In this document: positions 1 to 3,144 of the stretch, in pieces
How positions within the stretch are numbered: the first letter of the stretch is position 1
Layout of the letters: the number at the start of each line of letters is the position of its first letter
Assembly (NCBI GenBank): GCA_003331425.1
Contig: QOOS01000001.1
Location: 62,001-126,000 of the forward strand
Length of the DNA stretch: 64,000 nucleotides
Direction: 5' to 3'
Source of the DNA: Candidatus Nitrosopumilus sp.
Lineage (GTDB): Archaea; Thermoproteota; Nitrososphaeria; Nitrososphaerales; Nitrosopumilaceae
Position numbers and translations under genes: made by a program
The notes under the pieces: generated by a model
Seen by the model: the letters and a program-made list of their open reading frames with translations, nothing else
What the model was told of the DNA's origin: nothing
Database searches by the model: none

Positions 1-371
1 AATTTCTTTGAAACCGGATCTAATGATTTTAGGTTTAAAACTCTCATTTTCTCATCTCTGAGTTTTCGTCTTTCGTGTCTGTAAACTATGTAAGATTTTG
101 CGATATCACTATTACCACTATCAATTAAAGTTGATTCTACAATATCTTGAATATCCTCTACAGTTGGTGATTTCTCACTTGTGAATCCCTGTTCAACAAG
201 TTTGTTAAGCACTTCTCCTGCTAGTTTGTCTGCAGCACCACGGTCGGCTTTGGAGGTGGCGGCTAATGCCTGGTATATGGCATTTGAAATTTTATCTAAA
301 TCGAAAGCCGTAACTGTACCATTACGTTTACGGATCTCATTGATCGTATTTTCTATTTGTGAATTATCCAT
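1..371 (-). CDS. Ribonucleotide reductase, N-terminal ATP-cone part (truncated by window edge)
   Basis: Only the first 123 codons are inside the window; the rest lies beyond base 1. The ATG at 371 opens a protein with a typical ATP-cone: basic residues followed by GTVTAFD, then helices ending in a KLAGEVLNKL-type segment at about residues 13-60, and a YRHERRKLR stretch near residue 100. ATP-cones bind ATP or dATP and set the overall activity of ribonucleotide reductases. From family knowledge of this lineage the likely product is the adenosylcobalamin-dependent (class II) enzyme, but the catalytic part is not visible, so the class is inferred. A Shine-Dalgarno-like GGTGGGAG lies at 380-387, 8 bases before the ATG, and a TATA-like box at 404-412, implying a short leader. 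Its upstream neighbour is a protein containing NrdD-like regions (621-2789). Confidence 0.72.
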   Translation of the reverse strand, partial: MDNSQIENTINEIRKRNGTVTAFDLDKISNAIYQALAATSKADRGAADKLAGEVLNKLVEQGFTSEKSPTVEDIQDIVESTLIDSGNSDIAKSYIVYRHERRKLRDEKMRVLNLKSLDPVSKK

Positions 372-403
372 TATAATATCTCCCACCATAGTAGAATACT
401 AGC

Positions 404-412
404 ATCTATAAA
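404..412 (-). promoter_or_regulatory. TATA box of the ribonucleotide reductase gene
   Basis: Read on the minus strand the box is TTTATAGAT, about 37 bases before the ATG at 371. Transcription would start near 383 and leave a leader of roughly 12-15 bases that contains the GGTGGGAG ribosome-binding sequence. Most other promoters in the window fit leaderless transcripts, so this one is different. Confidence 0.45.
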
Positions 413-458
413 CTTTCAATAGAAAATAATTCAAATTTTGGTTGAACATTATTTACAA

Positions 459-485
459 CGGTACAAAATTCATTGTAATGGTACA
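459..485 (-). promoter_or_regulatory. Pair of TGTACCR words upstream of the RNR promoter
   Basis: On the minus strand TGTACCA (479-485) and TGTACCG (459-465) are spaced 20 bases apart, centre to centre, in the 249-base gap between the two ribonucleotide-reductase-related genes. The same word recurs in other promoters of this window (near 6056, 8909, 10924, 17759 and 20232). They could be operator half-sites. This is inferred from recurrence only. Confidence 0.3.
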
Positions 486-620
486 AGTATGATGAATGAT
501 GTAACGAGTATCGTAAAAACATTGAGAACATAACCAACTAGTTAATAGTAATGAAAACATATTCTATGTTTGCATTACGAAGATCGCTTACACTACTTAC
601 AAAATATGATTTGTTGAGAC

Positions 621-2789
621 TTAAACAATCCAAGGAGATTTGCATTTTGGACATTTCTCTTCATATGGTTCATCCTTAAATCCACATTCACCACAAATAG
701 GGGTTTTTCTAACTAGTTTAAAAGATGGCACTAGTTCTGCAGTTTTTTCAATTGATTTTTTGATTTCATCGGCTTTCAAGTTTTTATCAATATCTAAGGT
801 AACGAGTAATCCACCATTAAGTAATTTTGAGATTTTATTAGATTCAGAAATAATTTCAGACTTTGCAGTATATTCATCAATTTCTGAAGAATTGATAACA
901 GTGCCTTGAGAATAAAAATCACTTTCCATAGAATTAAGACTAGAATTTTTGCCATATTTTTCACCATCAAGGGTTGCAAATCTAGAAGAACCTTCAGTTT
1001 CAGTCATAGAAATAGTCACATTGTCGCCTAGTTCTTTACCCTTTTTAGCGCCAACATCAACTGCAGTCTCAATCACTTTGTGAAGTATAGCACGACCATC
1101 CTTATTGTCTTTAAAGCCTAAAATGTTAAAAACAGACTCTCTAAGACCAACTAGATTTATGACCAAAGAGACAGAACTTCTTTGCATATATTGAGTATTT
1201 TTAGCAAGAATAGGATTTAATCCTCTTCTGGTTAAATCTGAGATTTCTTTTTTTCTAAGTGCCATTGAAGCCAATGCAGGTTTCATTAACAAAGCTAATC
1301 TTGCTCTAAAGTAAGTCTCATCTTTGTTTGATTCAAATGCCAATCTAGGAAGATTGATAGAAACAGACTGCAAGTTGATTGCAAGTGAACTAGTGGATTT
1401 TGAAGAACCATTAGTTACTCCATTACTAGCAGTTTGACCTTTTGCAATCATTACTTTACCTCCAAGTAACAATATTTCAGAGATATCTTGTGACACGTCA
1501 GTTATTTTTCCTTTTTCGTTATCAATTATCAAACCAATTTTTGGTATTGGTGTAATTGCAACATAATTTTTGTATGCATTAATGATTGAATGAATTATTT
1601 TTGTATCAGAACCTAATTGTAATCGAATTGATATATTTGTACTAACTTTATTGTACTTTGAAGTTGTAGAAGCAGTTGCAAATGTATTAGTTAATTTTTC
1701 TTCAAGTTCTGGAAGTGACTTTGAATGTTTTGCAAATACTGCAACTAATCCATCTAATACAACTTCCTTTGAAGCTTCTTTTGATAAAAGTGAAATTAAA
1801 ACAGATAAAGAACTTGTAATTTCATTTAGTTGTTTTGAAACATTGATTCTTGATACATCAAGATATTTTCCTCCAAGATCAAGTCCATCGTCAAGTAATT
1901 CTTTTGCATTTACAAATATTGTATCAGGAATCATAGACCAAACTCCAGGATTTGAAATATGTATATCTCCAGATAAGTGGTTGTCAGCTACATCTTTTGG
2001 TAAAACATTAGTTAACAAATGTTCAGCAAATATTTTTTGACCGGTATTAAACAAAAGACCTTCAGCACCATTATCAACATTATCTAAATTAGAAACCATT
2101 TCTTGAACATCATAAACGGGCATACCTAGGCGTGCAAGTTTGTTTCTGTATTCTTCATGACCATGTTCTAAAAGAACTGAATTTACCATATCACGAATAA
2201 CTGCGCCTGTGAGATAGGTAGTTTGATACTTGTAAATTCTGTTTTCAACTTCTTCAGTAATCTTTTGTGCTAATTCTAGTGGAAGACTACCCTCACGTAC
2301 TAATGATTGAATAATTTTATGGGAATTAAATTCCTCAATAGATTCACCAGATGTTCTGACATACATTTTTCCACTTTCAATAATCGATCTTTCTTCAATT
2401 TGTCGGGCTAAACTTAAAACAAGTTTTCCAAGATTAGTGATTGTATAACGTCTTTCAGATTTGTTAAGTGCAACTAGTGATTGTCTAAGTAATTTTCTCA
2501 AGTGGTACGCAAATTTTCCACTTTCTTTTTTAGATTTGAATCCAGCTAATGATTTGAGCTCAGAATAAGTTAATGGTCCTTTAGAGTTTAAAATTCTAAG
2601 AATATCAATTCGGTTAGGACTTGCCATGACAGAGAAGATCATTCTGACACGTTTTGATGTAGATTGTAAAATTCCACCACGTTTTGGATCAGAATCGTCG
2701 TCGATATCAGAATCTAAATCTGCATCTAGATCGTCATCATCAGAATCTATATCCATATTCATTTCTAATTCTTCTTCATTCATTGTCAT
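621..2789 (-). CDS. Winged-helix DNA-binding protein fused to ATP-cone and degenerate NrdD-like domain
   Basis: Residues here are counted from the ATG at 2789 (722 aa). An acidic Asp-rich N-terminus (about 10-35) is followed by an ArsR-like winged helix (about 45-125, with SPNRIDILRIL and YHLRKLLRQ). Next come an ATP-cone-like region (about 140-230) and a long stretch resembling class III ribonucleotide reductase NrdD. The protein ends in a zinc knuckle, CGECGF and KCPKC. All four cysteines of the protein are in that knuckle. The active-site cysteines and the C-terminal glycyl-radical motif of real NrdD are absent, so it cannot be a working reductase. I infer a nucleotide-sensing transcription factor, possibly acting on the adjacent reductase gene. 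An in-frame TTG at 2801 is possible, but a TATA-like box at 2811-2817 fits a leaderless start at 2789. Confidence 0.75.
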   Translation of the reverse strand: MTMNEEELEMNMDIDSDDDDLDADLDSDIDDDSDPKRGGILQSTSKRVRMIFSVMASPNRIDILRILNSKGPLTYSELKSLAGFKSKKESGKFAYHLRKLLRQSLVALNKSERRYTITNLGKLVLSLARQIEERSIIESGKMYVRTSGESIEEFNSHKIIQSLVREGSLPLELAQKITEEVENRIYKYQTTYLTGAVIRDMVNSVLLEHGHEEYRNKLARLGMPVYDVQEMVSNLDNVDNGAEGLLFNTGQKIFAEHLLTNVLPKDVADNHLSGDIHISNPGVWSMIPDTIFVNAKELLDDGLDLGGKYLDVSRINVSKQLNEITSSLSVLISLLSKEASKEVVLDGLVAVFAKHSKSLPELEEKLTNTFATASTTSKYNKVSTNISIRLQLGSDTKIIHSIINAYKNYVAITPIPKIGLIIDNEKGKITDVSQDISEILLLGGKVMIAKGQTASNGVTNGSSKSTSSLAINLQSVSINLPRLAFESNKDETYFRARLALLMKPALASMALRKKEISDLTRRGLNPILAKNTQYMQRSSVSLVINLVGLRESVFNILGFKDNKDGRAILHKVIETAVDVGAKKGKELGDNVTISMTETEGSSRFATLDGEKYGKNSSLNSMESDFYSQGTVINSSEIDEYTAKSEIISESNKISKLLNGGLLVTLDIDKNLKADEIKKSIEKTAELVPSFKLVRKTPICGECGFKDEPYEEKCPKCKSPWIV

Positions 2790-2810
2790 GACTAAGATCA
2801 AAGTTAGGAG

Positions 2811-2817
2811 TAAATAA
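2811..2817 (-). promoter_or_regulatory. TATA box of the NrdD-like regulator
   Basis: The minus strand reads TTATTTA, about 25 bases before the ATG at 2789. This is the spacing expected for a leaderless archaeal transcript and argues against the upstream TTG at 2801 as the start. Confidence 0.45.
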
Positions 2818-2913
2818 GACTTATGACTAGAATGATTCTAAAAAATAAATTACAAATTTAAGAAAAAAAATAAAAAAGATTAGAAAAAATTAGTAAAAAA
2901 GATCTTCATGTGA

Positions 2914-3075
2914 TCATTTTTCTTCTACATCAAGTGAAAATTCAGATGTAGAAAGCTTTTGTCCACAAAATGGACACTTACCACTAGTAGGATTCAAAAC
3001 ATCTTTTAATGATTTTAGCATTTTCATATCTTTGATCTTTTCTCCACATTTTCCACACGTTATTTCTACAGACAT
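2914..3075 (-). CDS. Small zinc-ribbon protein (53 aa)
   Basis: The ATG at 3075 opens a 53-residue protein with two CxxC pairs: CGKC at residues 7-10 and CPFC near 34-37. They are separated by a lysine-rich helix, the layout of a compact zinc ribbon. It has no signal peptide or membrane segment, so it should be cytosolic. Zinc ribbons of this size often act in nucleic-acid or protein binding, but I do not recognise the family and assign no function. It lies between the NrdD-like gene (upstream on the chromosome, same strand) and the DUF35/thiolase pair, with its own gap on either side. Confidence 0.7.
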   Translation of the reverse strand: MSVEITCGKCGEKIKDMKMLKSLKDVLNPTSGKCPFCGQKLSTSEFSLDVEEK

Positions 3076-3144
3076 AGAATAACGAGATTTTTAAAATAAT
3101 TAAGAATCTATTCTGATTTTTTTTAATAATTCAAACAAATATTT

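Follow-up and report, generated by a model that had tools for sequence, protein, structure and literature searches.

Genes and features of the locus

The window, by which we mean the whole 64,000-nucleotide stretch of DNA analysed here, comes from a Nitrosopumilus-like ammonia-oxidising archaeon whose nearest named relatives are 93–96% identical in the protein described below. At its left end lie two neighbouring genes on the same strand, gene 621-2789 and a class II ribonucleotide reductase gene that starts at about position 371 and extends past the left window edge (Table 1). The reading frame of gene 621-2789 is open throughout; the alternative ATG at 2783 gives a protein of 720 amino acids, and the upstream ATG is kept in relatives. 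Across Nitrosopumilaceae a near-invariant block, AGTCATAAGTCTTATTTACTCC (window ~2790–2835, minus strand), is found ~20–40 bp 5' of the start codon and is probably the promoter of this gene. A small zinc-ribbon-like ORF, CPFCGQKLSTSEFSLDVEE (~2918–3076, minus strand), lies directly upstream and is also kept in relatives.

The protein begins with the acidic stretch that the earlier note had remarked upon, and alignment confines this tail to part of Nitrosopumilus. It is followed by an ArsR-like winged helix, as had been proposed, with above-cut-off Pfam matches at residues 49–123 to DUF7347 (40.6 bits) and HTH_20 (33 bits, cut-off 27). The winged helix contains the invariant block SKKESGKFAYHLRKL, has no cysteine in its sequence, and is the best conserved domain of the family, with a mean identity of 75% across the window's order. 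The ATP-cone-like region is recognised by Pfam (36.4 bits), and the sensing role assumed for it is weaker than had been thought, as VRTS replaces the canonical VxKRDG phosphate-binding pair (KR to TS); two of the genuine NrdDs of archaea to which the family is linked also have VRTS. The remainder resembles the anaerobic (class III) reductase NrdD (Pfam NRDD scores 101 bits at residues 464–715 against a cut-off of 26.2) and retains the NLPR motif, D606, Y624 and GG657-658. The protein stops six residues past its C-terminal zinc knuckle and has no glycyl-radical loop; its only four cysteines are those of the knuckle, as had been read from the letters.

The next gene, correctly taken earlier for an ATP-cone reductase, encodes a class II enzyme (PF02867, 889 amino acids, L031:4720-7389). 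It and the 621-2789 protein are the only two ATP-cone proteins of the host genome, a search of which gave no further NRDD match and no NrdR-like ATP-cone protein.

Table 1. Features at the left end of the window (residue numbers are those of the 720-residue form)
Feature	Position	Strand	Basis or remark
Class II (B12-dependent type) ribonucleotide reductase with ATP-cone, N-terminal part	1..371	-	domain matches
Intergenic region with reductase promoter, 249 bp	372..620	-	sequence patterns
TATA box TTTATAG of reductase promoter	406-412	-	sequence
Conserved promoter block with inverted repeats	441..485	-	in relatives TATGAAnTTCATA and TGTCAAn5TTGA
Candidate operator dyad, second degenerate copy of GCGATCATCGT	505..513	.	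one mismatch
Candidate operator dyad, degenerate copy of GCGATCATCGT	578..586	.	one mismatch in window
HTH - ATP-cone-like - NrdD-like protein	621..2789	-	720-722 aa, start ATG 2789 or 2783
Zn knuckle C697-C700-C711-C714	642..695	-	C-terminal; alignment
Degenerate NrdD body, residues 226-690 (barrel ~330-690)	714..2108	-	Pfam, model, alignment
Gly455 replacing radical-Cys loop cysteine	1419..1421	-	alignment
Thr288 replacing first catalytic Cys of NrdD (E. coli C175)	1920..1922	-	alignment
ATP-cone-like domain, residues 140-212	2148..2366	-	Pfam 36.4 bits, cut-off 25.8; alignment
Winged helix-turn-helix, residues 45-132	2388..2651	-	Pfam HTH_20 / DUF7347
Acidic N-terminal tail, residues 1-33	2685..2783	-	sequence and alignment

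Homology to NrdD and predicted fold

The NCBIfam NrdD equivalog model gives the 621-2789 protein 88.6 bits against a cut-off of 326, as would be expected of a non-enzyme. In members of the family outside Nitrososphaeria (L088, L097 and L105) the NRDD match is nearly full-length at 196–226 bits, and the HTH and cone remain. A profile of 19 family members recovered the solved PDB NrdDs at E ~1e-13. An AlphaFold2 model built from 40 close sequences is good over much of residues 330–690 (block means mostly 70–92, with some weaker stretches) and poor before residue 250; the N-terminal domains were modelled at a confidence too low for a fold search of their own. The best 36 Foldseek matches to the PDB are all class III NrdDs, the lowest E being 6e-16, with TM-scores (normalised by target) of ~0.47–0.63 that reflect the badly placed N-terminal half of the model. 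The body is thus homologous to NrdD by sequence and by predicted fold, as suspected earlier.

In a phylogenetic tree the 55 family members, drawn from a survey of genomes of the window's own phylum, form one group that adjoins the RITGYY-type archaeal NrdDs. The joint clade with the latter has a support of 0.999 and the family by itself only 0.57; the HTH-NrdD fusion thus probably arose once, although the tree does not back this firmly.

Loss of the catalytic residues

The 55 family members were compared in one alignment with a set of 24 genuine NrdDs, made up of the E. coli enzyme and 23 from the window's phylum. All 24 of the latter set have the first catalytic cysteine, which is found in 0/55 family members. 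The radical-cysteine loop column holds Cys in 23 of the 24 genuine enzymes, the loop of E. coli being misaligned, and in none of the family, 51 of whose 55 members have Gly there. An NxN flap over the substrate has been described for Prevotella copri NrdD (PMC11226230); its first Asn is found in all 24 genuine enzymes and in no family member, and the second in 4/55 of the family. The glycyl-radical Gly is aligned in 24/24 and 2/55, respectively. The zinc-knuckle cysteines, in contrast, are retained in 50–51 of the 55, and the family alignment contains no other conserved Cys. The absence of catalytic cysteines and glycyl-radical motif claimed for the window protein therefore holds, and by this comparison all the catalytic residues of a class III enzyme are gone from the family.

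Several members from anaerobic lineages end in a tail that resembles the glycyl-radical loop minus its Gly, for example FSRSSATYIPLDLWPEAKRRD against the genuine WSRITGYYQQIRGWNAGKLQEF. We note that one member outside the class (L094:6445-8781), located upstream of a class II reductase, has a Gly-Tyr (SRTASGYLP) near the glycyl-radical position and lacks the first catalytic Cys. The zinc knuckle is also lost in L103, L104, L113, L116 and L117 (the latter two possibly truncated for other reasons), in which the HTH, the cone and a reduced body remain; this suggests that the barrel end of the protein may be dispensable.

Distribution, selection and gene linkage

Of 150 well-assembled genomes in the window's class, 146 contain the family gene, which is also present in anaerobic lineages that retain genuine NrdD. 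A profile search of the phylum matched 250 of 299 genomes, a tally that is not equivalent to presence of the family because weak partial matches and genuine NrdDs are counted in it. Strong purifying selection acts on gene 621-2789, whose dN/dS against four close relatives is 0.05–0.08 for the whole gene and between 0 and 0.013 for the HTH. These values, together with the architecture and losses shared by 55 homologues, exclude chance as an explanation.

The earlier note had suggested looking for the same fusion near reductase genes in related genomes, and this is what was found: in 77 of 80 named genomes a reductase gene follows the family gene immediately on the same strand; in two of the remaining three a contig end comes soon after the gene, and the third has a stop codon in the match. 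Among the loci of the window's order that were fetched with enough flank, all have this arrangement except one with a small intervening gene (L118) and one with a split gene (L122), and a same-strand position immediately upstream of a class II reductase is found in at least 13 families of the order. The linked reductases vary in domain set and include ATP-cone plus barrel, TSCPD and Ribonuc_red_2_N types. Among deep members of the class, L108 and L109 have a convergent reductase 6 bp away, and others have no reductase nearby. In three anaerobic loci (L092, L093 and L096) the family gene is followed by a genuine NrdD, a pairing shown by further genomes in the phylum-wide coordinates. The coupling to reductase genes thus holds over very deep divergence and for more than one class of reductase. 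Many Bathyarchaeia-like members adjoin pyrB or other genes rather than a reductase; pyrB, which encodes aspartate carbamoyltransferase, is convergent with the family gene in L088, L091, L095, L101 and L107. The pyrB neighbours suggest a wider tie, and taken across all loci the family is linked in general to nucleotide metabolism and most strongly to reductase genes.

The reductase promoter and candidate operators

The 249-bp intergenic region that precedes the reductase shows strong sequence patterning. In Nitrosopumilaceae the dyad GCGATCATCGT lies mostly 138–152 bp ahead of the point where the reductase match begins. Of 103 distinct regions from this family of archaea, 65 contain the exact sequence CGATNATCG, where shuffles give 0.4; this contrast overstates the functional evidence, since promoter ancestry common to related species makes the regions non-independent. 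The dyad is non-random, and its conservation amid divergent flanks is the stronger point; covariation within it is weak and was not counted as evidence. In eight genomes exact RCGATCATCGY occurs 0–2 times each, and the reductase promoter is the shared intergenic location. A regulon defined by the exact dyad was rejected, the additional sites being coding or not common to the genomes, as was autoregulation through CGATNATCG, of which there is no exact copy upstream of the regulator gene in 96 regions. The two copies in the window are notable for their co-location only, since the whole 64 kb contains eight one-mismatch matches where 7.1 are expected. A second pattern, TGTCAA-N3-7-TTnA, which belongs with the 441–485 block and its counterparts in relatives and was defined post hoc, is enriched in the same regions (42/103 against 1.6) and in other families of the order (7/33 against 0.27).

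Some Nitrosopumilaceae lack CGATNATCG despite a nearly identical HTH, and in the regions inspected from other families of the order the dyad was not seen by eye, a single copy being found when one mismatch was allowed. Its assignment to the 621-2789 protein is therefore uncertain, and it may belong to another factor. The candidate dyads lie 30–180 bp upstream of the TATA box, a placement that in archaea fits activation better, so if they are sites of this protein, activation is somewhat favoured over simple repression.

Proposed function

The most probable reading, to which we assign a probability of about 0.68, is that a dead class III reductase has become, in the 621-2789 protein, a one-component regulator that controls transcription of ribonucleotide reductase. 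It would have arisen from a copy of an ancestral NrdD of archaea that was joined to a winged helix at its N-terminal end and lost its two catalytic cysteines, its NxN flap and its glycyl radical. The dead body is proposed to sense a nucleotide effector most likely through its nucleotide-binding surfaces, candidates being the barrel or the specificity-site region at the dimer interface, and possibly the altered ATP-cone. Nucleotide binding by the cone is uncertain because of the KR to TS replacement, and the barrel or dimer interface may be the sensing site instead. Effector sensing is predicted to alter the affinity of the winged helix for DNA at the reductase promoter, and the main target would be the downstream reductase, namely the class II enzyme in Nitrososphaeria and genuine NrdD in some anaerobic relatives. 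DNA binding at this promoter, a nucleotide ligand and the direction of control are what we infer from the sequences.

It is unlikely, given the near-universal same-strand linkage within the order and the scarcity of exact RCGATCATCGY away from the reductase promoter, that the protein is instead a broader regulator of nucleotide metabolism, replication or the cell cycle, with the reductase as one of several targets; the near-invariant HTH, the convergent pyrB of several anaerobic members, which ties the family to nucleotide metabolism at large, and the deep class members that are not upstream of a reductase would all suit such a role. Somewhat less probable again is a protein-level partner, a pseudo-subunit that binds and controls the reductase with DNA binding secondary or absent. 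NrdD functions as a dimer (PMC11226230), and an NrdD-like body encoded adjacent to a reductase gene on the same strand could hetero-dimerise, but the HTH is the best conserved domain, and the linked reductases span subtypes and classes that a specific interface could hardly track. A decaying pseudogene or relic, to which the lost catalytic residues and the few members without a zinc knuckle might point, is very improbable and is ruled out by the dN/dS values and by presence in nearly all genomes of the class. That the protein is still an active anaerobic reductase with an atypical active site, as the retained zinc knuckle and several structural residues might suggest, is scarcely credible given that the catalytic residues are lost, that aerobic ammonia oxidisers are among the hosts of the class and that the class II reductase next to it is complete; barring novel chemistry, the residue comparison rules this reading out.

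For ammonia-oxidising archaea and their anaerobic relatives, this family is probably the regulator of DNA precursor supply that had been missing. We put at even odds the larger proposal of a phylum-wide archaeal family in which a whole dead enzyme ancestor reads the nucleotide pool and sets transcription of whichever reductase is in use, and which moved with the lineage from a class III to a class II enzyme when it turned aerobic. The family would also be a clear example of a central metabolic enzyme converted into a transcription factor that acts on the pathway it came from; intermediate forms are still visible in the degenerate glycyl-radical tails and the coexistence with genuine NrdD. It offers a concrete and testable candidate for transcription-level control of dNTP supply in archaea, some of which are among the most abundant of all organisms. 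Reductase protein has been reported at high relative abundance in Nitrosopumilus strains exposed to H2O2 (PMC6593220), which provides a ready physiological setting for probing the 621-2789 protein. We also note that annotation from the domain match alone would lead to a false inference of anaerobic DNA precursor synthesis in aerobic archaea.

Comparison with known systems

The family shares with NrdD a homologous body, the zinc knuckle, the NLPR motif and the predicted fold; it differs in the added N-terminal winged helix and in the loss of both catalytic cysteines, the NxN flap and the glycyl-radical Gly. NrdR, the general reductase repressor of bacteria, which is rare in archaea (PMC9110341, PMC12176259), has 140–220 amino acids, with an N-terminal Zn-ribbon DNA-binding domain followed by an ATP-cone (PMC9110341). 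It binds DNA in a nucleotide-dependent way, and its NrdR boxes occur in pairs at reductase promoters; the reductase promoters examined here carry the conserved dyads described above. Like it, the family combines a DNA-binding domain with an ATP-cone-like domain and is linked to reductase genes, whereas the 621-2789 protein has 720 residues, a winged helix, a whole reductase body and a cone without the canonical nucleotide residues. The idea of an archaeal counterpart to NrdR thus stands as an analogy of role, and the DNA-binding domains are not homologous. The winged helix is of the ArsR type, with HTH_20 over its cut-off, but the effector part is a ~500-residue NrdD body and the HTH has no Cys, unlike ArsR/SmtB; the ArsR metalloregulator model NF033788 gives 24 bits against a cut-off of 55.

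Neither an enzyme-derived regulator built on ribonucleotide reductase nor this family was found in open-licence papers, most of the subscription literature lying outside them, and the conversion of an enzyme fold into an HTH-linked sensor is already known. The ROK regulators, the Nudix-based NrtR and the aminotransferase-like MocR all combine an HTH with an enzyme fold that senses a metabolite of the pathway. The 621-2789 family likewise joins an HTH to an enzyme fold, in this case that of a ribonucleotide reductase.
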